DNA of 64,000 nt from the NCBI GenBank assembly GCA_002715465.1, contig PAYY01000007.1:193047-257046 (forward strand), in the 5' to 3' direction. Position numbers and translations under genes: made by a program. The notes below the pieces were generated by a model, which had not been told where the DNA came from, made no database searches, and was given only the letters and a program-made list of their open reading frames with translations. Shown in pieces: positions 15,731 to 64,000 of the stretch. The number at the start of each line of letters is the position of its first letter. Position 1 is the first letter of the stretch. The stretch is from Fidelibacterota bacterium (GTDB taxonomy: Bacteria > Marinisomatota > Marinisomatia > Marinisomatales > S15-B10).

Positions 15731-16432
15731 TTATTTTATTTTATCAGTAACAAATGCATCTATATAAATTTCTACTCGTCTGTTTTGCGATCGACCTTCG
15801 GTAGAATTGTTGTTATATAGAGGTCGAAATTCTCCGTAACCCATAGCAGAAAATTTGTCCTGCCCTAATTCAGAAAACTCTGATAATAATTCTACAATAT
15901 TTAATGCTCTAGCTGTTGATAATTCCCAGTTTGATTCCCATTTAGACATAAGTTCAGAGGGGAGAGGAATATTGTCTGTATGTCCTTCTGTTCTTATTTC
16001 CATACTCAGTTTCTTTTGGCTTTTTTCAATGGCTTGTACAAATGGCTTGAATTGAAGATCATCTTTTAATCGCGTAATTTTAGAAGTCTTGAGTAATAAA
16101 GCGATCTGTTCAACTATTGGAATAACTTCAGAACGTAGTTCCGCTTGACCTGAAGGAAAAAGCTGACCACTTGCTATAGTAATCTTAACTCCTTTTGTTA
16201 CGCGTTCTACTTTAATTGATTGTGATTGTAACTCTAAGCTTAATTCTTTATATGTCTCATCAAGTAACATATTGATTATTCGATCAACATGTTTCTCCGC
16301 TTCGTTCATCATTACAATCACTAAAATAAAGAAGGTCAGTAATAGTGTCACCATATCACCGAAAGTAACAGCCCAAGCCGTACTACGTGCTTTGGACTCT
16401 CCAAATGATATACCTGAGACGTTTCTTGTCAA
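15731..16432 (-). CDS. motB: MotB-type stator protein (OmpA/MotB domain)
   Basis: A peptidoglycan-anchored stator subunit that forms an ion channel with MotA. After a short cytoplasmic start, TFGDMVTLLLTFFILVIVMM is the single transmembrane helix and carries the essential Asp26. The periplasmic part has a linker and an OmpA-like domain from about residue 130 (TEGHTDNIPLP, then SQNRRVEIYI near the end). At 233 residues it is slightly short for the family. The start is a TTG at 16432, 5 bp after motA. No flagellar or chemotaxis genes lie in the window, so the rotor partner is unknown; a gliding or other motility or transport role cannot be excluded. Confidence 0.85.
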   Translation of the reverse strand: MTRNVSGISFGESKARSTAWAVTFGDMVTLLLTFFILVIVMMNEAEKHVDRIINMLLDETYKELSLELQSQSIKVERVTKGVKITIASGQLFPSGQAELRSEVIPIVEQIALLLKTSKITRLKDDLQFKPFVQAIEKSQKKLSMEIRTEGHTDNIPLPSELMSKWESNWELSTARALNIVELLSEFSELGQDKFSAMGYGEFRPLYNNNSTEGRSQNRRVEIYIDAFVTDKIK

Positions 16433-16437
16433 TGGTT

Positions 16438-17247
16438 CTATTTAGTTAGTCGTTGACTTTGAGGAACAAATGTCATCAATTTTTCTTTAAGGCTTAAAGG
16501 GTGATCTTTTGCGTGGATACCAATAATTCCTTCTACCATGATATCTTTCACCATCAATTCTTCTTCAGAATTTCGTTTTAATTTTCCAGCTAGTGGAAGA
16601 AATACAAGATTCGAAAGTAAGACCCCATAAAATGTTGTAATTAGTGCAAGCCCCATTCCACCTAATAAGTCAGCAAATCTATCAGCAATGTTAAACTCCA
16701 ATTGCATCATGGATACATTTTGTGATTCAGCAAAATTTTTCATCATAATTATTAAACCAAGTACTGTGCCTAACATACCAAAAGCAGGAGAATAAGCCCC
16801 CATATACAAGAAAATTTCTTGACCAAGACTATGCCGTCTTTCAATATTTCCAAGTTCTAATGCAAGATAGCTTCTGAGTCGTGTTGTGTCTTTTTCATTT
16901 ATCGCTAAATCAAGTCCATCTCTCAAAAATTTATCAGCAACTTGGTTTAATTCAGGTTCTAATGATAGAATACCTTTTTTCCGTGCTTTTTCCGCTTTAT
17001 CTACTAGTTCATTGATGACGGACTCATGGCTCAATTCTTGTCCTCTAAATGCTGCGGAAAGTATACTGAACAAGCCTTGAATATTTTTTAAAGGATAATT
17101 AACAAGTGTTGCAGCAAAAGTACCTCCTATTACAATAAGGATTGAATCCCAATCTAAGAACCATATAGGATCTCCATTATTGGAAATTATCCCAATTGAA
17201 ATCAGTCCAATGCCTAAAAGTAATCCGAATGCTGTGCCAAAATCCAA
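16438..17247 (-). CDS. motA: MotA/PomA-type stator protein
   Basis: A four-helix membrane protein of 269 residues. TMs are visible near residues 3-22, 30-50, 145-168 and 180-205. SPAFGMLGTVLGLI contains the conserved TM3 proline and GGMGLALITTFYGVLLSN the TM4 signature, with the large cytoplasmic loop between TM2 and TM3 as in MotA/PomA rather than ExbB/TolQ. It starts with TTG at 17247 behind an AAAGG Shine-Dalgarno. It converts ion flow into torque together with MotB, encoded just downstream. Confidence 0.87.
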   Translation of the reverse strand: MDFGTAFGLLLGIGLISIGIISNNGDPIWFLDWDSILIVIGGTFAATLVNYPLKNIQGLFSILSAAFRGQELSHESVINELVDKAEKARKKGILSLEPELNQVADKFLRDGLDLAINEKDTTRLRSYLALELGNIERRHSLGQEIFLYMGAYSPAFGMLGTVLGLIIMMKNFAESQNVSMMQLEFNIADRFADLLGGMGLALITTFYGVLLSNLVFLPLAGKLKRNSEEELMVKDIMVEGIIGIHAKDHPLSLKEKLMTFVPQSQRLTK

Positions 17248-22875: not shown

Positions 22876-23940
22876 TCAATCTATGGCGTTTAGTTGCTCC
22901 ATTTGATCGGCAATCTTTAATTGCTCTATTAGTTCAATAATATCACCATTCAAGATTTCTTCTAACCTGTAAAAAGTAACATCAATTCGGTGATCAGTTA
23001 CCCTACCTTGAGGAAAATTATAAGTTCTGATTTTCGCACTTCGGTCACCAGTAGAGACCATAGATTTTCTAACTTTAGCACGTTCTGTTTGTTGTCTCTC
23101 TCTTTCTTTTGCTAATAAACGTGATCTAAGAACTTTCATTGCAGCGGTTCGATTTTTATGTTGTGACTTTTCATCTTGACAGGTTACAACTGTATCTGTA
23201 GGAATATGTGTTAGTCGAACAGCAGATTCGGTTTTATTAACATGTTGTCCTCCAGCACCTGATGCACGAAATGTATCAATTCTTAAATCTTGTGGATTTA
23301 TTTCTATATCAACTTCATCTGCTTCAGGAAGGACTGCAACAGTTGCCGCCGATGTATGAATGCGTCCGCTTGTTTCGGTTGTAGGTACACGTTGTACACG
23401 GTGAACTCCACCTTCATATTTTAACTTTCCAAAAATAGAGTCTCCTTTAAAAGAACAAATCACTTCTTTATAGCCACCATTTCCAGTAACATTTGCTGAA
23501 ATTAGATCACAATCCCAATGATTTTGTTCAGCAAAGTAATTGTACATTCGGTAAAGGTCTGCTGCAAAAAGAGCTGCTTCTTCTCCTCCTGTGCCTGCTC
23601 TTATTTCCATGATTGTATTTTTTGAATCAAGAGGATCTTTAGGCAATAAAAGTATCTTTAAATCTTCTTCTATATTTAGACTATCTTGTTTTAATTGTTC
23701 AATTTCTTCTCTAACAATTTCCTTTAGTTCTTCATCATCTCCACCTAAAATTGCTTCACCTTCAGAAATTTGCTTGATAGTTTGAATATATTGGTGACTT
23801 TTCTTTGATAAAGGTTCAATTTCATGATGTTCTTTTGCTAGTTGGCCATATTTTGTTGGGTCAGTAAGTATATCAGGGTCAATTAACAGTTGATTCAACT
23901 CTTTATATCGCTCTATGATTTGTTTTACTTTATCTATCAT
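22876..23940 (-). CDS. prfA: Peptide chain release factor 1
   Basis: RF1 reads UAA and UAG stop codons. It has the peptidyl-hydrolase motif RASGAGGQHVNKTESAVR, and the anticodon-like tripeptide region RVPTTETSGR carries P-x-T, which distinguishes RF1 from the SPF motif of RF2. 354 residues, standard length. It sits in the conserved order rpmE-prfA-prmC. Confidence 0.96.
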   Translation of the reverse strand: MIDKVKQIIERYKELNQLLIDPDILTDPTKYGQLAKEHHEIEPLSKKSHQYIQTIKQISEGEAILGGDDEELKEIVREEIEQLKQDSLNIEEDLKILLLPKDPLDSKNTIMEIRAGTGGEEAALFAADLYRMYNYFAEQNHWDCDLISANVTGNGGYKEVICSFKGDSIFGKLKYEGGVHRVQRVPTTETSGRIHTSAATVAVLPEADEVDIEINPQDLRIDTFRASGAGGQHVNKTESAVRLTHIPTDTVVTCQDEKSQHKNRTAAMKVLRSRLLAKERERQQTERAKVRKSMVSTGDRSAKIRTYNFPQGRVTDHRIDVTFYRLEEILNGDIIELIEQLKIADQMEQLNAID

Positions 23941-24005: not shown

Positions 24006-24224
24006 CTAATTGTCAGTATTATCATTCAGATTACCATACTTTTTCTTGAATTTTTCGATACGACCTGCAGTATCTACAAGTTTTTGTTGACCAGAAAAAA
24101 AAGGATGGCATGATGAACAAATTTCCACTCGCATGTCACCTACAGTGGTTCTTACCTGGAAGGTATTCCCACATGCGCAAGTAACATTCCCAATAGAATA
24201 TTCAGGGTGAATGTTAGTTTTCAT
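24006..24224 (-). CDS. rpmE: 50S ribosomal protein L31, zinc-binding form
   Basis: A 72-residue large-subunit protein that bridges the subunits. It retains the zinc ligands of the C+ paralogue (VTCACGN and CSSCHPF), so it is not the zinc-independent YkgM type. It lies between the aminotransferase and prfA on the - strand, 9 bp after the former. Confidence 0.95.
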
Positions 24225-24233
24225 ATAATTTCC

Positions 24234-25418
24234 CTACTTTAGTTTTTCTAGAGCTAGTTCAATTCTATCAATGCCTTCTAGAAAAACCGATTCTTCTGTA
24301 GCATATGATAGTCTAATATAACCCTCAAGACCAAAGCCAGAACCAGCAACAGTAACTGTTCTAGCAGATTCCAAAATATAATCACTTAGAGCGAAAGAAG
24401 TGTCTATAATCTTTCCCTGATTCTTTAGGCCAATATAGTGACTTAAATCAGGAAATGCATAAAATGCTCCCCCAGGTGTTGAGCAGTATAGATTATTAAT
24501 TTTGTTTAATCTATTAATCATTAAGTTTCTTCGTTGAGAGAAGACTTTTTTCATTTGATTAACTTCAGACTGATTGCCCATTAGAGCTTCAATAGCTGCT
24601 TTTTGACTTATGGAGTTAGGGCAGGAAGTCGCTTGTCCTTGAATTTTACCCATTGCTCGAATAATTTCAACATCTCCAGCTGTATATCCAATTCGCCAAC
24701 CTGTCATAGCATAAGTTTTAGACATGCTTTGGACAGTAAGTACATTCGCTCCAGCCTCATTTAAGGATTCAGTACTTACATATTTTTTATCATATACTAG
24801 CCTTTCATAGCATTCATCTGATATAACAAGCCAATTATGTTTAGCAGAAATTGTTAATAGGTTTTTTATTGTTTCATTATCCCATACGGAACCTGTTGGA
24901 TTTGAAGGAGAATTCAGAAGGATAGCTGCAGTATTTGTTGAGATTTTTTTTTCAAGGTCATTCCAGTCTGGAGTAAAATTTTTCTCAGGTATTGTTTTTA
25001 CAATGACTGGTATGCCGTCAGCCAAGCGAATAATTTCAGGGAATGATACCCAATATGGAGAAAAAACAATTACTTCATCATTAGGATTTAGAACTGCTTG
25101 ACAAATAGTGCTAAGGGAATGTTTAGCACCATTTGAAACTATAATTTGGTCAGGATTGTAAATAATTTGATTATCTCTCTCAAGTTTTACACAGATAGCT
25201 TCTCTAAGTTCTAGGGTTCCTCTTCCCGGAGTATATTTGGTATGTCCTTCAGACATCGCTTTAATAGCGGCCTCTCTTATATTTATAGGAGTATTAAAAT
25301 CTGGTTCGCCCACTCCAAGGTCAATCACATCAATACCTTGACTTCTTAGTGAAGCTGCTTTTGATGTCATCTCGAGTGTAAATGACGGCTGTATACGATT
25401 TACTCTATTTGCTATCAT
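24234..25418 (-). CDS. aspC: Aspartate aminotransferase (class I, type Ib-like)
   Basis: A PLP-dependent fold-type I transaminase of 394 residues, interconverting aspartate/2-oxoglutarate and oxaloacetate/glutamate. The N-terminal PS-F-T-L-E-M-T and DLGVGEPDFNTP motifs fit the prokaryotic Ib subgroup. The Schiff-base lysine is in SMSKTYAMTGWRIGY (near residue 237), and YIRLSYA near the C-terminus holds the carboxylate-binding Arg. The gene starts 3 bp after the Cas6b-like gene, so the two are co-transcribed. Broader substrate use, such as prephenate, is possible. Confidence 0.92.
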   Translation of the reverse strand: MIANRVNRIQPSFTLEMTSKAASLRSQGIDVIDLGVGEPDFNTPINIREAAIKAMSEGHTKYTPGRGTLELREAICVKLERDNQIIYNPDQIIVSNGAKHSLSTICQAVLNPNDEVIVFSPYWVSFPEIIRLADGIPVIVKTIPEKNFTPDWNDLEKKISTNTAAILLNSPSNPTGSVWDNETIKNLLTISAKHNWLVISDECYERLVYDKKYVSTESLNEAGANVLTVQSMSKTYAMTGWRIGYTAGDVEIIRAMGKIQGQATSCPNSISQKAAIEALMGNQSEVNQMKKVFSQRRNLMINRLNKINNLYCSTPGGAFYAFPDLSHYIGLKNQGKIIDTSFALSDYILESARTVTVAGSGFGLEGYIRLSYATEESVFLEGIDRIELALEKLK

Positions 25419-25421
25419 AAT

Positions 25422-26285
25422 CTAATGTGTTTTCGAATGATATTCAGCTGTGTTAAAGTTTGGTTCATTATCTGGCACCTTATTTTTCGGTTTATTTTTT
25501 ACTTGTTTCTTTCTTTTGCTACGTGGAATGTCATTAGGATCAATAGCATCATTTTCCCAACCTTCTGGTAAGTCTTGAATTGGTTCAACGGTTTGTTCAA
25601 TATTTTCAGTCAATGAAGATTCGTTAGCATGACTTATAAGAACACCAAACCCTTTTGTTATACCATTACCGAGACCAATATAATTTGGTAGAACAAAATT
25701 GGAATTAAAACTACCATCGAACGCACCAGCTTTTCCATCATCTAAAATTTTTGGTAATAGAGATGTAAGTGAAATATCTACAAAGATTCGATTTTCTAAA
25801 GAAAGGTTAAATTCTTTAGCAATGAAAGCTATATTTTGGCTTAAAAGACGTCTAAGAAAGTCGATTTTACTTTTAGATTTTTTGTCTGAAAACCCTTGGT
25901 AACGTTTCAGATTAACCCTATTGAGTGCTATCCAAGGAGAAAGAAAATTATAATGAATAGCTCTGTCAGTTGTACCTAATTGTAATTCATTTATTTCCTT
26001 CTCAATATTTTCTATTTTAAATGTTATGTTGCCAAAATTCAACATTTCCAAATTGTTCATTATTGATTCAATTGGCTCAACACCTTCTTTGATACCAATA
26101 AGATAAATTTGTTCATTTATGATTTTAACTTGAATTCTGGGATAAAGAAATTGATTGCGATAACTGCCATTTATATAAGGAATTAATGATTCATTAGGAA
26201 ATTCCTTCATTAAGATTCCCTTAACTTGGTAAGAGGTTTTTCGAACAGGTTTATCTGTTTTTAAACGGGAAACTATATATTTCAT
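25422..26285 (-). CDS. Cas6b-like RAMP-fold protein, orphan, N-terminal catalytic His not seen
   Basis: A 287-residue protein whose motifs match Cas6b-type CRISPR RNA endonucleases: FLYPRIQVKIINEQIYLIGI at residues 46-65 (family Y-P-x-I-Q-x-K-x-I ... I-G-I-x-E-G), FLSPWIALNRVNLKRYQ at 114-130 (family T-P-W-x-A-L-N) and the C-terminal glycine-rich loop IGLGNGITKGFGVL at 203-216. The region before the Y-P-x-I-Q motif, where Cas6b enzymes carry paired histidines (LLHxH), reads SLIPYINGSYRNQ and has none; the only histidines are H111, H219, H283 and H287. A tail of about 65 residues is acidic, then basic (RSKRKKQVKNKPKNK). No CRISPR repeats or other cas genes are present. It may bind or process a cellular RNA; function unknown. 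Confidence 0.7.
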   Translation of the reverse strand: MKYIVSRLKTDKPVRKTSYQVKGILMKEFPNESLIPYINGSYRNQFLYPRIQVKIINEQIYLIGIKEGVEPIESIMNNLEMLNFGNITFKIENIEKEINELQLGTTDRAIHYNFLSPWIALNRVNLKRYQGFSDKKSKSKIDFLRRLLSQNIAFIAKEFNLSLENRIFVDISLTSLLPKILDDGKAGAFDGSFNSNFVLPNYIGLGNGITKGFGVLISHANESSLTENIEQTVEPIQDLPEGWENDAIDPNDIPRSKRKKQVKNKPKNKVPDNEPNFNTAEYHSKTH

Positions 26286-26338: not shown

Positions 26339-27586
26339 CTAGTTATTCATTGTGTCAAGGAATTCCTCATTACTTTTTGTTCGCTTCATTCTATCTAGAA
26401 GGAATTCCATTGCTTCAATAGGTGTCATATCATTTACAAGTTTTCGAAGGATCCACACCCTAGATAAAGCCTTTTTAGAGAGCAATAAATCTTCTTTTCT
26501 GGTTCCTGAACGAATAAGGTCAAAGGAAGGGAAAAGCCGTCGATCACTTAAGCGACGATCAAGGACTAATTCCATGTTTCCTGTTCCTTTAAATTCTTCA
26601 AAGATTACATCATCCATTCTGCTTCCAGTATCAATTAGAGCTGTTGCTATAATAGTAAGGCTACCACCTTCTTCTGTATTTCGCGCAGCACCAAAAAGTC
26701 TTCTTGGCCTATGCAAAGCATTAGCATCTACTCCCCCCGATAAAATTTTCCCGCTATGAGGGATTACAGCATTGTGTGCTCTACCAAGACGAGTAATACT
26801 ATCTAAAAGAATCATCACATCGTTTCCATATTCCACCATGCGTTTTGCTTTTTCTAAAGCCATATCCGCTACTTGGACATGGCGTTCAGGTGGTTCATCA
26901 AATGTGCTACTTACAACTTCAGCATCAACACTACGTTCCATATCAGTTACCTCTTCAGGTCGTTCGGCTATTAGGAGCACAATAATTTTCACCTCAGGAT
27001 GGTTTTCTAAAGCCGAATTAGCAATTTTTTGAAGTAAAACGGTTTTTCCAGTTTTCGGTTGTGCTACAATTAGTCCTCTTTGCCCCTTTCCAATAGGAGC
27101 CATAAGGTCAAGAGTTCGCATTGAGAAACTTTTCGGATTATTTTCAAGTGTAAACCGATCTTCAGGGTATAATGGAGTTAGATTGTCAAATAGGATTGCT
27201 TTTTTTACTTGATCGGGACCTTGACTGTTGACAGTCTCAACTTTTAAAAGTGCATAGAAACGTTCATTGTCTTTAGGCGGACGAATTTGACCTGCAACTT
27301 GGTGACCAGTTCGTAAGCTAAACCTCTTTATTTGAGAAGGGGAAACGTAGATGTCATCAGGCCCAGGTAAATAATTATAATCTTGAGACCTAAGAAAACC
27401 ATATCCTTCGTGCATTACCTCAAGAACACCAGAGGCAAAAAGTTTACCTTCTTTCTCAGCCCTTGTTTCAAGAATACGCATAATCAACTCCTGTTTTTTC
27501 AAACCGGAGTATCCAGGCACTTCCATCTCTTGGGCGAGCTTGGTAAGATCTTTTATTTTGAGTCCTTGTAACTCAGTTACATCCAT
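26339..27586 (-). CDS. rho: Transcription termination factor Rho
   Basis: A hexameric RNA helicase that terminates transcription. The 415-residue protein has the N-terminal Rho helix bundle ([18 protein letters not shown]), the RNA-binding cold-shock domain ([15 protein letters not shown]), the Walker A loop [14 protein letters not shown] near residue 175, Walker [17 protein letters not shown], and the Q/R loops ([18 protein letters not shown]). No large insertion is present in the RNA-binding domain. The paucity of hairpin terminators at convergent gene ends in this window is consistent with heavy use of Rho, though that is inference. Confidence 0.97.
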
Positions 27587-27656
27587 AATAAACTTTTTTT
27601 AATTCGGGATTAAGAGAGTTTTGCTGTTATAACAGTAAAACCAATTTCAATTTATA

Positions 27657-28925
27657 TTATATTGACTCTTTGTCAAAGGGAAATTCGAAAACTGAAAAAA
27701 CTGTATTTGCAATGTAATGGGTTCCAAAAATAAATGAAATATAGGATGGTTTTAATTTACATTGTTGGATACCTTCCAAAAGTGATGGTGCAGCTTTAGC
27801 CTTGATGCCTTCATTGGATAATAAGGTGGCAAGTGATCTAGAGTTATAAAATTCACTATTTGTAGGCTCTATAGTAATAACATCTTTTACTTTTTTACAA
27901 AGCACTTTTGCAATTTCCTTAACATCTTTATTTTTTTTAATTGCACATATTGCTTGAATTGGTATGTCAGGATAAATGTCAATCAGTGTATTTAGTGATG
28001 CATGAACCCCATTAGGGTTGTGCCCTACATCAAAATAGACTATTGGTTTCTGCCATACTAATTGTAATCTTCCAGGCCAAATCGTTTTCTTTATACCTTG
28101 CGCTATTTTCTCTTCTTTTATTTTGCTTTCAAGCATACGACAAGTAGCTATAGCTGTTTGAGCATTTGCAACTTGGTGGCTACCTAAAAACGGGGAGGAA
28201 AAAAATGTGTCTAGAGATCTAAAGCTGATTCCATTTGCATTTTGTTTGAAATTTGATATAGGACACAAATCTGAAGCGAAAAATAAAGGAGCCCCATTTT
28301 TTTTTGCAGCTTTTTCTATCACTGTTAACACTTCTTCTTTTTGGTTAGTTGTAATGACAGGGATGCCATTTTTAATTATCCCAGCTTTTTCAGTAGCAAT
28401 TTTAGTAAGGGTGTTGCCAAGATATTCCATATGGTCAAAGTCAATAGTTGTAATTACTGATGCAATTGATTCACATACATTGCTTGAGTCAAGCCTTCCT
28501 CCCATGCCGACTTCAATTACCCCAATATCAACATTCTCATGAGCAAAAAGACTATACATCATAGCTGTGGTTGTTTCAAAAAAGGTTGAGCCTAGTAAAT
28601 TAATTGTTTCTTGGTAATGCTTTAAAAATGATATTATGAATTCATCACTAATTGGAATGCCATTAATTCTAATTCTTTCATTGAATTTTACAAGGTGAGG
28701 AGAGGTATAAAGTCCTACTTTGAGACCAGAAATCTTAAGTATAGATGCTATCATTGCTGCTGTTGAACCTTTACCATTGGTCCCAGCAATATGAACGATA
28801 GGAATGCCTTTATGAGGATTATTACAACGACTGAGAAGTTCTATAGTACGATGTAAGCCAATTTTAATTCCTCGTCGTTTTAAAGTATACAGGTAATCTA
28901 GAGTAGCTTGATCCAGTCTTGACAT
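27657..28925 (-). CDS. folC: Bifunctional dihydrofolate synthase/folylpolyglutamate synthase
   Basis: An ATP-dependent Mur-ligase-fold enzyme that adds glutamate to dihydropteroate and folates. PIVHIAGTNGKGSTAAMIAS is the P-loop, LKVGLYTSPHLVKFNERI the folate-side motif, and IGVIEVGMGGRLDSSN the Omega-loop region; VYFDVGHNPNGVHA is in the C-terminal domain. 422 residues is standard. Polyglutamylated folate is used by MetH and ThyX, both encoded in this window. It follows the amidase by 34 bp. Confidence 0.94.
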   Translation of the reverse strand: MSRLDQATLDYLYTLKRRGIKIGLHRTIELLSRCNNPHKGIPIVHIAGTNGKGSTAAMIASILKISGLKVGLYTSPHLVKFNERIRINGIPISDEFIISFLKHYQETINLLGSTFFETTTAMMYSLFAHENVDIGVIEVGMGGRLDSSNVCESIASVITTIDFDHMEYLGNTLTKIATEKAGIIKNGIPVITTNQKEEVLTVIEKAAKKNGAPLFFASDLCPISNFKQNANGISFRSLDTFFSSPFLGSHQVANAQTAIATCRMLESKIKEEKIAQGIKKTIWPGRLQLVWQKPIVYFDVGHNPNGVHASLNTLIDIYPDIPIQAICAIKKNKDVKEIAKVLCKKVKDVITIEPTNSEFYNSRSLATLLSNEGIKAKAAPSLLEGIQQCKLKPSYISFIFGTHYIANTVFSVFEFPFDKESI

Positions 28926-37182: not shown

Positions 37183-37218
37183 ATTAATTTTTTGAGAAAT
37201 AATTTGTACTTTACAAGT

Positions 37219-37644
37219 ATGGATTTTGGTGAACTATTGAATGAACTGGCAGTGTCTCTTAGCGCACTGCATAGGCGTGATATATGTAAAAAAGGTGAAA
37301 CATTGTCTCTTTGTTTTATGCTGTCTTCTATTCAAAATAAAGGAATTCAAATGAGCAGTCTTGCATATAAGCTTGGTGTTGACAATAGCACTTTAACAAG
37401 ACTCGTTGAAAATTTAGAAAGAAAACAATTGGCTTTTCGCCAAAGGGATGAGGCTGATAAAAGGATTATTAATGTGTTTTTGACAAAAGGTGGGGAAGAG
37501 CTAATGCTACAATTTTCTAAAAGAATAGAATCTCTAGGGAAAAAAATCTTTGAGGACATTTCAATTGATAAGCGGGAGAGCGTAAAAGAAGCTTTAGAAT
37601 TAGTGCTTTGGTGTTTAACGAGGGAAAGAATGTATAGGAAATAA
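37219..37644 (+). CDS. MarR-family transcriptional regulator
   Basis: A winged-helix dimeric repressor type. LCFMLSSIQNKGIQMSSLA and LGVDNSTLTRLVENLERK form the helix-turn-helix with the recognition helix, and the wing is RQRDEADKRIINVFLTKGG, with the D-x-R pair typical of MarR. I start it at ATG 37219; in-frame TTG codons at 37192 and 37204 are possible, none with a clear Shine-Dalgarno. It lies directly before mutY (1 bp), so they are co-transcribed; its targets are unknown. Confidence 0.87.
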   Translation: MDFGELLNELAVSLSALHRRDICKKGETLSLCFMLSSIQNKGIQMSSLAYKLGVDNSTLTRLVENLERKQLAFRQRDEADKRIINVFLTKGGEELMLQFSKRIESLGKKIFEDISIDKRESVKEALELVLWCLTRERMYRK

Positions 37645-60379: not shown

Positions 60380-61354
60380 TTATTCTCTTAAGGCTTTTAT
60401 TAGTTTTGGAATAATTTCCAGAATATCACCTACAATACCATAGTCTGCAAACTCAAAAAGAGGTGCTTCAGCATCTTTGTTTATTAAAATAATATTTTTA
60501 GAGCCTTTAATTCCTACAACATGTTGGATCGCCCCTGAAATTCCAAGTGCAAAATAAAGTTTTGGCGCTACAGTTTTACCAGAACTTCCAATTAGATGGT
60601 AGGGTTCAAGCCAGCCAGCATCAATAACTGGTCTTGATGAGGCCATCTTCGCTCCCATAATCTTTGCTAGATCTTTTGCAATTTGGACATTGTTTTCCGA
60701 ACCTATTCCCCTACCTATGGAAACTATAATATCTGCATTTGATAAATCAATATCACCCGTTACTTCTTGGAATGGTGGCTCTGAAATGGAGCGAATAGTA
60801 TCAGCATCCATTGATAAAGAAATTTTCCTTATTGCAGAATGTCTGCCTTCAATGATATCTTCTTTCTTAAATGCTGAGGATTGGAATGAAATGATTACCG
60901 GTTTATCACAGTTTGGAATAATATCAGCAGAAAGTTTACCTGAGAAAATCTGTTTTCTTAAAATTAATGAATGGTTTTTTTCAATACGATATGAAATATT
61001 ATCTGCTAAAAAAGGAAAATTTAGTTTAGCACTAACTCGGGGCAAGAAATCGCGAGCCATATATGTATGTCCTGCAAGAATAAATTTTGGAGTCTCTTGT
61101 TTAACTACTTCTCTGATGGCATCAGAGAAACCGTCACTACTATAATTAATTAATAAAGGATGTTCTGCAAATAAAATCTCATTAAGTTGTATACCTTTTA
61201 ATAATTCAACAATTCTAGCGGTTTTATATCCTAAAATAAGAGCAGAGACAGGAAGGTCGAAATCTTTTCCTAATGCTTGTCCAGCAGCTAGAACTTCATA
61301 ACTTATTTGATGCGGGCCTTTTTTAGTTTGTTCAATAATAACTAATATGCTCAT
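60380..61354 (-). CDS. etfA: Electron transfer flavoprotein, alpha subunit
   Basis: The FAD-binding subunit of the EtfAB heterodimer. GRGIGSENNVQIAKDLAKIM begins the C-terminal FAD domain, and PYHLIGSSGKTVAPKLYFAL, GISGAIQHVVGIKGSKNIIL and INKDAEAPLFEFADYGIVGD complete the signature. The N-terminal domain is a divergent Rossmann-like fold. I use ATG 61354 (a TTG at 61357 precedes it). It lies 70 bp after etfB. No acyl-CoA dehydrogenase or ETF:quinone oxidoreductase is in the window, apart from the Fe-S remnant next door. Confidence 0.94.
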   Translation of the reverse strand: MSILVIIEQTKKGPHQISYEVLAAGQALGKDFDLPVSALILGYKTARIVELLKGIQLNEILFAEHPLLINYSSDGFSDAIREVVKQETPKFILAGHTYMARDFLPRVSAKLNFPFLADNISYRIEKNHSLILRKQIFSGKLSADIIPNCDKPVIISFQSSAFKKEDIIEGRHSAIRKISLSMDADTIRSISEPPFQEVTGDIDLSNADIIVSIGRGIGSENNVQIAKDLAKIMGAKMASSRPVIDAGWLEPYHLIGSSGKTVAPKLYFALGISGAIQHVVGIKGSKNIILINKDAEAPLFEFADYGIVGDILEIIPKLIKALRE

Positions 61355-61424
61355 CAAATAATTTGTCTCATTGGATAATAAAATGAATAAAATGAAAAGT
61401 TATATTATTGGAATGCATAAATAA

Positions 61425-62189
61425 TTAAAATAGCTTTAATTCTTTTTTTAAGATATCTAAAATACGTTGAATTTGTTGATCTACACTACCATCTATCATT
61501 TCTGTCTTTTTTGATTTTTTAGGATTAAAAATTTTTAAAATAGACTGGTTTGGATTCAGTTTATTATTGACTGTGACAGATTTAATTTCTTTTTTCTTCG
61601 CACTCATGAGTCCTTTTAAAGAAGGATAGCGTAAATTATTAATACCAGACTGAATGGTTATTGAAGAGGGTAGAGTAAGTGTTACCCATTGATACCATCC
61701 TGATTCAAGCTCACGTTTTACTCTTACTGTTGTATCAGTCACCTCAGTCTCCATTACTAAAGTAGCCGTTGTCATTCCAAGAAGTTCACCAATCAGCACT
61801 CCCACTTGACCAAAACCATTATCATCTGATTGGAGACCAGATAGGATAAGATCGAAATTTTCTTCTTTAATTGTTTCAGCAATTATTTTGGCTATTTGTA
61901 ATGGATCTGAATTGTACGGGTAGGGTTCATCAATATGAATCCCTCTATCAACTCCTTTAGACAATGCTTCGCGAATAGTACGTTTAGCACGTTCCGGTCC
62001 TAAGCTTACCGCGACAACTTCACCATCATCAAGTTTTGCAATGATTTGCAGAGCTTCCTCAATGGCATAGTTATCACTTTCATTTGTAAAAAAAGTGAGA
62101 TTATCTTCTTTAACCCAATTTTGATCATCAGAAATTTGAAGTTGAGACTCAGTCCCTGGAACCTGTTTTACTAATACAGCAATTTTCAT
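61425..62189 (-). CDS. etfB: Electron transfer flavoprotein, beta subunit
   Basis: The AMP-binding partner of EtfA. It begins MKIAVLVKQVPGTESQLQI and has the family N-x-x-D-x-x-A-I-E-E-A-L stretch (NESDNYAIEEALQI), an SGLQSDDNGFGQVGVLIGEL adenosine site and a C-terminal arm that wraps EtfA (LRYPSLKGLMSAKKKEIKS). 254 residues is normal. It is first in the etfB-etfA transcript. Confidence 0.94.
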   Translation of the reverse strand: MKIAVLVKQVPGTESQLQISDDQNWVKEDNLTFFTNESDNYAIEEALQIIAKLDDGEVVAVSLGPERAKRTIREALSKGVDRGIHIDEPYPYNSDPLQIAKIIAETIKEENFDLILSGLQSDDNGFGQVGVLIGELLGMTTATLVMETEVTDTTVRVKRELESGWYQWVTLTLPSSITIQSGINNLRYPSLKGLMSAKKKEIKSVTVNNKLNPNQSILKIFNPKKSKKTEMIDGSVDQQIQRILDILKKELKLF

Positions 62190-62297: not shown

Positions 62298-64000
62298 ATG
62301 AATCAACTCAACCATCCATCTCTTATTCTAATGATTATTTTGATGATTTATCAGTTTTCTCTAAAAGCTCAGGATAAACCTACTATGGAAACTCTATTGA
62401 ATAAATCTACTAAGGCAGTTAGAACAAGTTCTCAACCAAATATTGATGGTAGAATGGATGATAAAGTGTGGGAAAATGCTATTCCTATTTCTGATTTTAT
62501 TCAATATGAACCAGATAATCTTTCTCCAATAACTGAAAATACAGCAGTTCGAATATTGTTTGATGATGAAGCATTATATATAGGTTTTAAATGTTTTGAT
62601 TCAAATCCTTCAGAAATAATGAGCCGGCTAGCTCGTCGTGATCAATGGAAGGAAGCAGCTTCAAATAATGCGGATTGGGTTTCCATCGCATTAGATCCAC
62701 AGAATGACAAAAAAACGGGATATATTTTTATTGTAAATGCCGCTGGAATAAAAATAGATGTTTTTGTTCCCGATGATGAAAATTATGATCCAGCTTGGAA
62801 TGCTGTTTGGGATGCTAAAGTGAATCTTGGTTCTGATGGATGGACGGCAGAAATGAAAATTCCTTTTTCAATCTTTCAATTTAATTCTAACAGTATCCAA
62901 ACTTGGGGGATGGAACTTCGAAGAGGAATCTATAGAAAACAGGAAGTACAGAAATGGCCTGGACAGGCTAGAGGTGTAAAAGGAATTGTTTCATTATTTG
63001 GAACGCTAAATGGAATTATTAACATTCCTAATCCAAAACAACTAGAGTTGCTTCCTTATGTTCTGGGTGGCCAAAGCATAGGTAATGATAGGAATACAAC
63101 GAAGGGGGTAGGAGTAGATATGGAATATGGTATCTCTTCTAATACTTCTTTATCAATCACAATTAATCCTGATTTTGGGCAAGTTGAAGCAGACCCTTCA
63201 GTATTAAATCTTACAGCATATGAGACTTTTTACCCTGAAAAAAGACCTTTCTTTGTAGAAGGAGGTTCATTTTTTACACCTCAATGGAGTGAAACAGGAG
63301 ATGGTTGGCAAAGAGGCTCCTTTACCTATAAGCCAATAAGAGTTTTTCATTCACGAAGGATAGGTAAATACCCAAATTATTTTACGCCTAATGATGGAAA
63401 TATTATAAGTTTATCTGAAAATACTACGATACTAGGTGCAGCAAAAGTATTAGGAAAGACTCCTTCGGGTATCAATTATGGTTTTATTGAAAGTATTACA
63501 GACAATGAAATTGGAATTGTGGAAAAGGAAGATGGCTCGAGGAGTGAATTTCTATTAGAGCCACGTACCAATTATTTTATTGGTCGAATAGAAGCTCCAT
63601 TTATTAATAATGCTTCAATACTAGGAATAACATTTACAGATGTAAGAAGAGCAAAGGGAGAAAATGCTTCTGTAGGGGTATTTGACTGGAGAGTTCGATT
63701 CTTACAAAATAGATTTAGTTTTAATGGTCAAGCAGCATTTTCTAATCTAATGGGTAGTCAAGGTGGGGCTGGCAGGTTCCATGTGAAATATGATAATTTT
63801 AAATGGTGGACAATGGATCTATTATCAACTTTTTATGATAATGGTTTTAAGAATAATGATCTGGGCTTTCTTAGGCGTTCTGGAGTCTGGAGCGTTAGAG
63901 TAGGAGGATCAATAAGGAAACAAGATCCATGGGGTCCTTTCAGAAAAAATAGGTTAATGACAAGATATTTCCATTATTCCAGAACAGATCACATTGCTCT
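62298..64000 (+). CDS. DUF5916 outer-membrane-type protein with CBM9-like domain, partial
   Basis: The frame opens at ATG 62298 and is still open at the window edge after 567 codons. A signal peptide (LILMIILMIYQFSLKAQ) is followed by a CBM9-like beta-sandwich (PNIDGRMDDKVWENAIPISD to FSIFQFNSNSIQTWGMELRR). Then comes the DUF5916 region with INPDFGQVEADPSVLNLTAY and FYPEKRPFFVEGGSFF, typical of large FCB-group proteins whose remaining part forms a beta-barrel in the outer membrane. The ligand is unknown; the CBM9-like domain may bind carbohydrate. It is divergent from etfB with 108 bp between. Confidence 0.85.
   Translation, partial: MNQLNHPSLILMIILMIYQFSLKAQDKPTMETLLNKSTKAVRTSSQPNIDGRMDDKVWENAIPISDFIQYEPDNLSPITENTAVRILFDDEALYIGFKCFDSNPSEIMSRLARRDQWKEAASNNADWVSIALDPQNDKKTGYIFIVNAAGIKIDVFVPDDENYDPAWNAVWDAKVNLGSDGWTAEMKIPFSIFQFNSNSIQTWGMELRRGIYRKQEVQKWPGQARGVKGIVSLFGTLNGIINIPNPKQLELLPYVLGGQSIGNDRNTTKGVGVDMEYGISSNTSLSITINPDFGQVEADPSVLNLTAYETFYPEKRPFFVEGGSFFTPQWSETGDGWQRGSFTYKPIRVFHSRRIGKYPNYFTPNDGNIISLSENTTILGAAKVLGKTPSGINYGFIESITDNEIGIVEKEDGSRSEFLLEPRTNYFIGRIEAPFINNASILGITFTDVRRAKGENASVGVFDWRVRFLQNRFSFNGQAAFSNLMGSQGGAGRFHVKYDNFKWWTMDLLSTFYDNGFKNNDLGFLRRSGVWSVRVGGSIRKQDPWGPFRKNRLMTRYFHYSRTDHIA

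Follow-up and report, generated by a model that had tools for sequence, protein, structure and literature searches.

A rho-linked Cas6b-like protein lacking the catalytic histidines is a candidate RNA-binding protein in Fidelibacterota

What is a homologue of Cas6b, an endonuclease of clustered regularly interspaced short palindromic repeat (CRISPR) RNA (crRNA), doing directly behind rho? The question is raised by a gene in a 64,000-nucleotide (nt) stretch from a Fidelibacterota bacterium (GCA_002715465.1, contig PAYY01000007.1, positions 193,047-257,046 of the forward strand), the whole of which is referred to as the window. An earlier note on this DNA had described an orphan Cas6b-like gene between rho and an aminotransferase gene; the open reading frame (ORF) is present at that place, on the minus strand. 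Our preferred reading, to which we assign a probability of about 0.55, is that Cas6b departed from CRISPR, became fixed behind rho and acts as an RNA-binding protein that does not cut, made with Rho and modulating which transcripts Rho reaches. The features that bear on this directly are:

25422..26285, minus strand: rho-linked Cas6b-like gene, 287 residues (ORF call; Pfam, PADLOC and PDB matches)
26339..27586, minus strand: rho, transcription termination factor, 53 nt upstream of the cas6b-like gene (Pfam Rho_N, Rho_RNA_bind, ATP-synt_ab)
26001..26282, minus strand: Cas6b N-terminal domain, residues 2-95 (Pfam PF17955, E 1.5e-11)
25635..25973, minus strand: Cas6b C-terminal domain, residues 105-217 (Pfam PF17262, E 4.3e-24)
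25644..25676, minus strand: retained glycine-rich loop GLGNGITKGFG, residues 204-214 (alignment)
26172..26180, minus strand: P36-Y37-I38, at the place of the H-N-H (H38-N39-H40 in Methanococcus maripaludis) of CRISPR-type Cas6b (alignments)

The resemblance of the window protein to Cas6b is far above chance. Both Pfam domains, Cas6b_N and Cas6b_C, exceed their curated cut-offs (44.7 versus 25 bits and 85.4 versus 39.4 bits), the PADLOC Cas6 profile is matched at 2.2e-41 and the Cas6b structure PDB 4z7k at 1.2e-21, and the predicted structure has the Cas6b fold. The match to Cas6 and repeat-associated mysterious protein (RAMP) profiles on which the earlier note depended is thus strong in both Pfam and PADLOC, and the motifs it had listed are found, YPRIQVKI from residue 48, PWIALN at 117-122 and the glycine loop at 204-214. 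In the loop, G206, G212 and G214 are invariant across a 22-row alignment that includes seven CRISPR-type Cas6b proteins. Two glycines of Haloferax volcanii Cas6 are essential for crRNA, according to excerpted text of PMC3945376, and by our own reading these would belong to the same loop. An NCBIfam TetC match to the window protein, at 19.6 bits against a cut-off of 425, was taken as chance. One relative, P0047 (481 residues), carries the Cas6b C-terminal domain region twice in tandem.

Linkage to rho extends across the phylum, which is common in the ocean. The window protein is matched by 869 proteins at E <= 0.001, and the organisms named among the 120 relatives listed per search were all Marinimicrobia, Neomarinimicrobiota or Fidelibacterota, most proteins bearing no name; restriction of the family to this phylum is seen among named, listed matches and is not proven. 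Scanning of genome contigs yielded 97 stretches encoding relatives, and among the best 80 of these rho is in all 80 the same-strand match that precedes cas6b. A profile search across 245 genomes from the phylum returned 138 Cas6b_C matches in 130 genomes, 124 of them, in 122 genomes, located 331-1060 nt past rho on the same strand. The two genes are 9-93 nt apart in 120 of the 122 loci, a count that includes the window, the outliers being L018 (409 nt) and L002 (506 nt, probably from a broken rho match; L and G numbers are our handles for loci and genomes, C numbers for contigs). Of the 14 matches outside the rho-linked set, 10 were taken as CRISPR-type and four lie on contigs other than that of the main rho match (G151, G103, G188 and G184); in the three of these that were inspected (L108, L125, L121), cas6b adjoins a rho end at the edge of the contig. 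Separately, rho is split in two matches or contains an internal TAA in G074:C207, G136:C34 and G180:C52, where sequencing error is possible.

Catalytic residues were compared in an alignment of 122 rho-linked rows (121 from loci and one from the window, with 105 distinct proteins among them), 114 CRISPR-type rows (nine loci and 105 relatives of L087, the gene context of these 105 not having been seen) and the corresponding stretch of 4z7k. The columns of interest are those of M. maripaludis His38, Tyr47 and the second catalytic histidine, which we take to be number 40, in agreement with the alignment. According to excerpts of PMC3945376 and PMC3652601, the M. maripaludis enzyme depends on Tyr47 and on two histidines that include His38. 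In the window protein P36 and I38 are aligned with H38 and H40. At the first column, 110 CRISPR-type rows carry a residue (four are gapped), which is histidine in 109 of them and Asn in L085; none of the 122 rho-linked rows has histidine, and Pro (106), Ser (10) and others (6) occur instead. At the second, histidine occupies 110 of 110 CRISPR-type rows and none of the 122 rho-linked rows, the residues in the latter being Leu (73), Ile (36), Met (10) and Ser (3). The absence of the paired N-terminal histidines, which the earlier note had claimed for the window protein, is therefore general in the rho-linked set. At the Tyr47 column, 76 of the 122 rows have Phe and 31 keep Tyr, and a histidine anywhere in the wider segment occurs in 19 of the 122, at scattered positions. 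From these sequences we infer that rho-linked Cas6b would not cut RNA.

The window also lacks the remainder of a CRISPR system, as had been proposed. No CRISPR array was detected in its 64 kb, direct repeats amounting to six two-copy families and Tandem Repeats Finder giving one 1.9-copy row; Rfam gave no match at gathering score; and PADLOC, run on 53 of 57 ORFs (those at 2-550, 60380-61357, 61425-62189 and 62298-63998 lay outside the scan), identified no other cas gene, except for weak CasR/CARF3 labels (E 5e-5 to 4e-4) on one 150-residue protein at 37192-37644. As far as these scans reach, cas6b is encoded in the window with neither cas genes nor an array. Among the 245 genomes, Cas1 is found in 31 and type III RAMPs (PF03787) in 17; for the 122 rho-linked genomes the corresponding figures are 12 and 7, all seven also having Cas1, and 110 and 115 give no match, absences which are soft as genome completeness is not stated. 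In all 12 genomes having both, Cas1 is on a different contig from the rho-linked cas6b. PF01905 occurs in three of the 245 genomes (two above cut-off), none of them rho-linked. In none of the 122 rho-linked genomes did the rho-linked gene stand beside an active CRISPR system with its catalytic residues intact.

Of the ten matches taken as CRISPR-type, nine were read (L081-L089), the tenth being G010:C12, and of the eight that cover the catalytic site seven have H-N-H and L085 has N-N-H, L086 being a fragment without the site. In six of the ten (G037, G180, G020, G021, G219 and G010), Cas1 shares the contig and is no more than about 10 kb away. Six genomes (G010, G020, G021, G079, G092 and G180) contain both kinds of Cas6b. 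In five of these the non-rho copy was read (L082, L083, L085, L088 and L089), four having H-N-H and one N-N-H, and in the sixth the G010:C12 Cas6b is about 1 kb from Cas1.

Descent and selection were examined on a tree of 68 chosen rows, comprising 21 rows with a C-terminal tail (window included), 16 short rows and 31 CRISPR-type rows (eight from loci and 23 from the 105 L087 relatives). One branch divides CRISPR-type from rho-linked proteins, with a Shimodaira-Hasegawa-like approximate likelihood ratio test (SH-aLRT) value of 96 by a quick method with midpoint root and no bootstrap. Across 95 sequences including the window, pairwise distances in cas6b are correlated with those in rho (Spearman 0.79, 0 of 1000 permutations as high), and within 77 tail sequences the agreement is 0.45. 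Rho-linked cas6b is under purifying selection: among 55 pairs at 80-99.5% identity, 38 have a synonymous rate (dS) below 1.5, and the ratio of nonsynonymous to synonymous rates (dN/dS) has a median of 0.10 and a highest value of 0.358. None of the 138 Cas6b_C matches, 10 of them CRISPR-type, contains an internal stop in the matched domain.

A charged tail had also been described as added to the Cas6b domains. It is present and its end is conserved, but it is restricted to one subclade and is not family-wide.

25425..25634, minus strand: charged C-terminal tail, residues 218-287 (low predicted confidence toward the end)
25425..25460, minus strand: conserved C-terminal peptide NFNTAEYHSKTH, residues 276-287 (no variation at N278 or H283 among 30 aligned sequences)

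The end pattern [RNK][FY]N...[YFH]H..(.)[HL] is found in all 100 rho-linked loci whose proteins exceed 280 residues (83 distinct proteins) and in 0 of 21 shorter rho-linked proteins; a narrower expression caught 81, the remaining 19 carrying Arg at the first place. Tailed proteins form one side of a branch in the 68-row tree (SH-aLRT 99). Upstream of the terminal peptide the tail is variable and charged, predicted confidence falling to about 50. No second protein with the tag was seen in a six-frame search of the window and 150 loci: the C-terminal form was matched 98 times, once per source, as explained by 97 locus Cas6b proteins and the window, and a looser pattern gave 106, five of them outside Cas6b sequences, of which two have stops in view.

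Expression of the pair was approached through the rho leader.

27649..27677, minus strand: promoter-like TTTGAC ... TAAATT ahead of rho, where a rho-cas6b transcript may start (pattern match only)
27617..27642, minus strand: predicted hairpin in the rho 5' leader (covariation across lineages; also in cas6b-less genomes)

A TTTGA..TAnnTT element stands ahead of rho in many leaders and cas6b follows rho closely, so that cas6b is probably made from the rho transcript. Near the predicted transcript start lies the hairpin; its loop is often C-rich, and its arms show covariation between lineages (rho leaders of L001-L080; a MAFFT alignment of 18 leaders was misregistered and excluded from pair counts). 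Leaders were chosen by the promoter expression, 62 of 95 from cas6b-bearing loci, thinned by identity to 41, and 30 of 40 from cas6b-less loci, thinned to 25; the statistics ignore kinship of the leaders, and a background of other promoters, with four members, was given no weight. The first 36 nt of cas6b-bearing leaders fold at -6.54 kcal/mol versus -4.27 for swapped halves (p 2e-4), and the following 34 nt show no excess (p 0.98-0.99). Among the first 10 cas6b-less leaders two were under -4 (z comparison p 0.047), suggestive of cas6b specificity; at n=25 the fraction under -4 was 40%, versus 83% with cas6b, and the cas6b-less swap test gave p 0.012. At 48 nt the test gives p 2.5e-4 with and 0.063 without cas6b, and at 60 nt 0.18 and 0.60. 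The hairpin is thus a feature of rho leaders, at most commoner or stronger with cas6b, and possibly an element of rho autoregulation. Since it also occurs, less often, in cas6b-less leaders, we do not claim it as the Cas6b ligand.

Combined, these observations suggest a CRISPR part reused for handling the cell's own RNA. The gene would have arrived behind rho early in Marinimicrobia/Fidelibacterota evolution, the catalytic histidine pair would then have been lost, and the gene, most likely second in the rho transcript, would have been inherited with rho thereafter. RNA binding is likely, because selection acts on the gene and the protein retains the glycine loop and the predicted fold, through which it would bind without cutting. 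Rho control is the role that most simply accounts for a pair that stays together where other neighbours are not found (L112-L116). Made together with Rho, the protein could modulate which transcripts Rho reaches in one of two ways: it could bind the rho leader, a form of autogenous control, or it could mark other RNAs of the cell. The disordered tail of the younger subclade, ending NFNTxxYHxKxH, would most likely dock a protein partner.

Several observations weigh against this account. The RNA ligand remains putative, and the tie to Rho rests on gene linkage and spacing. Adjacency may in part be general operon conservation, because aspC and prfA, with no evident tie to Rho, also keep their place. 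No Rho residue tracks cas6b presence between 95 rho sequences with and 20 without the gene (thresholds of at least 90% in carriers and at most 35% in non-carriers), and the covarying hairpin is shared with cas6b-less leaders. Loss of the histidines is no proof of lost cutting, because Sulfolobus solfataricus Cas6 functions without an active-site histidine (excerpts of PMC3945376 and PMC3652601); that protein is a CRISPR enzyme using several basic residues, and the feature it shares with rho-linked Cas6b is the missing histidine. Finally, 115 of the 245 genomes have no Cas6b_C match, again soft absences, and presence on the rho tree (36 carriers, 20 non-carriers) requires seven gains or losses, so that the gene appears dispensable. 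Together with the single split between CRISPR-type and rho-linked proteins, the seven changes suggest early gain with several losses; repeated transfer may be the alternative history.

The readings considered are not exclusive, since cutting or not and Rho-tied or not are separate questions. The strongest competitor, which we regard as possible and clearly behind the reading of a Rho-tied binder, is a functional RNA-binding protein acting in translation or RNA turnover, its place behind rho being operon history only. The gene run contains translation genes, gene order in the region is conserved in general, and the lack of a tracking Rho residue agrees with it.

24234..25418, minus strand: class I/II aminotransferase (aspC), beginning 3 nt past the cas6b-like gene (Pfam Aminotran_1_2)
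24006..24224, minus strand: rpmE, ribosomal protein L31 (Pfam Ribosomal_L31, 3.1e-30)
22876..23940, minus strand: prfA, peptide chain release factor (Pfam PCRF and RF-1)

However, rho and cas6b are still paired in L112-L116, which have no aspC or folC match nearby. The fixed rho-cas6b-aspC order of the earlier note accordingly stands for rho-cas6b but not for aspC, other relatives having rho and aspC without cas6b: in nine of 20 non-carrier loci (L136, L137, L138, L139, L140, L142, L143, L149 and L150) the aminotransferase comes next after rho and the ORF list has no entry separating them, a site without cas6b. In L041, L056 and L059 the aminotransferase match behind cas6b is on the opposite strand and 34-39% identical, and another gene may occupy the place.

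A histidine-free endoribonuclease of cellular RNA, processing mRNA or structured RNA and thus more than a binder, is doubtful. It could draw on the kept predicted fold and glycine loop, the S. solfataricus precedent and a basic N-terminal segment, TDKPV[RK]KT.YQVKG, strongly conserved in the tail group, yet the replacements are mostly Pro at the first column and Leu, Ile or Met (119/122) at the second, and Tyr47 is mostly Phe, though Tyr persists in some rows. Less probable again is a dedicated Rho partner, in which a non-cutting Cas6 surface would read RNA, occupying the C-rich leader hairpin of the rho-cas6b transcript as well as other transcripts, and so set the place or the amount of Rho termination, the conserved C-terminal peptide serving as a docking tag for the transcription machinery. 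A working crRNA endonuclease of other catalytic chemistry, serving arrays elsewhere in the genome, seems improbable: R43, R50 and K54 are invariant in the tail group (30 aligned sequences), histidine-free activity is described for S. solfataricus and some rho-linked genomes do have Cas1, but most match neither Cas1 nor type III RAMPs and two-kind genomes have a separate non-rho Cas6b. A decaying, functionless CRISPR relic, to which the genomes without a match and the several implied losses might point, is contradicted by the low dN/dS, the intact domains and sequence conservation across relatives, and we give it hardly any credence.

To our knowledge no rho link exists for the Pyrococcus Cas6-related proteins (PDB 3ufc, 'Characterization of a Cas6-related gene'; 3qjj, 'One RAMP protein binding different RNA substrates'), which are archaeal and of another Cas6 branch. 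M. maripaludis Cas6b (4z7k/4z7l; PF17955 and PF17262) differs in that the rho-linked protein has both catalytic histidines replaced and Tyr47 mostly changed to Phe, is encoded behind rho, usually in a genome without a Cas1 match, and bears a tail in one subclade. The exapted CRISPR systems reviewed in PMC8730458, among them the dev operon and the Streptomyces cas5-6-7-8 module, likewise reuse CRISPR parts, but as multi-gene modules, and the excerpted text of that review describes no lone Cas6 beside rho. A search of open-access literature by title and start of abstract, with subscription journals and preprints outside it, found no orphan or rho-linked Cas6; the 'solo/standalone Cas6' of PMC8866350 is, from its excerpted text, ordinary crRNA processing and hence no precedent.

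By family, then, the protein is a Cas6b homologue; by function, it lacks both the catalytic residues and CRISPR linkage. Some public records label rho-linked proteins 'CRISPR-associated endonuclease Cas6', a functional label the present data argue against, and name-based surveys may therefore miscount them. If the preferred reading is true, a solo CRISPR RAMP would be in use outside immunity, maintained among housekeeping genes in many lineages of the phylum, and the Cas6 RNA-binding fold would be recruitable into general gene expression. The system offers a defined protein, a candidate operon and a natural comparison of lineages with and without cas6b. Elsewhere in the window, a MotA/MotB-type pair at 15731-17247 (minus strand), labelled ZorA/ZorB-like by PADLOC, is probably an ordinary motor or transport pair.
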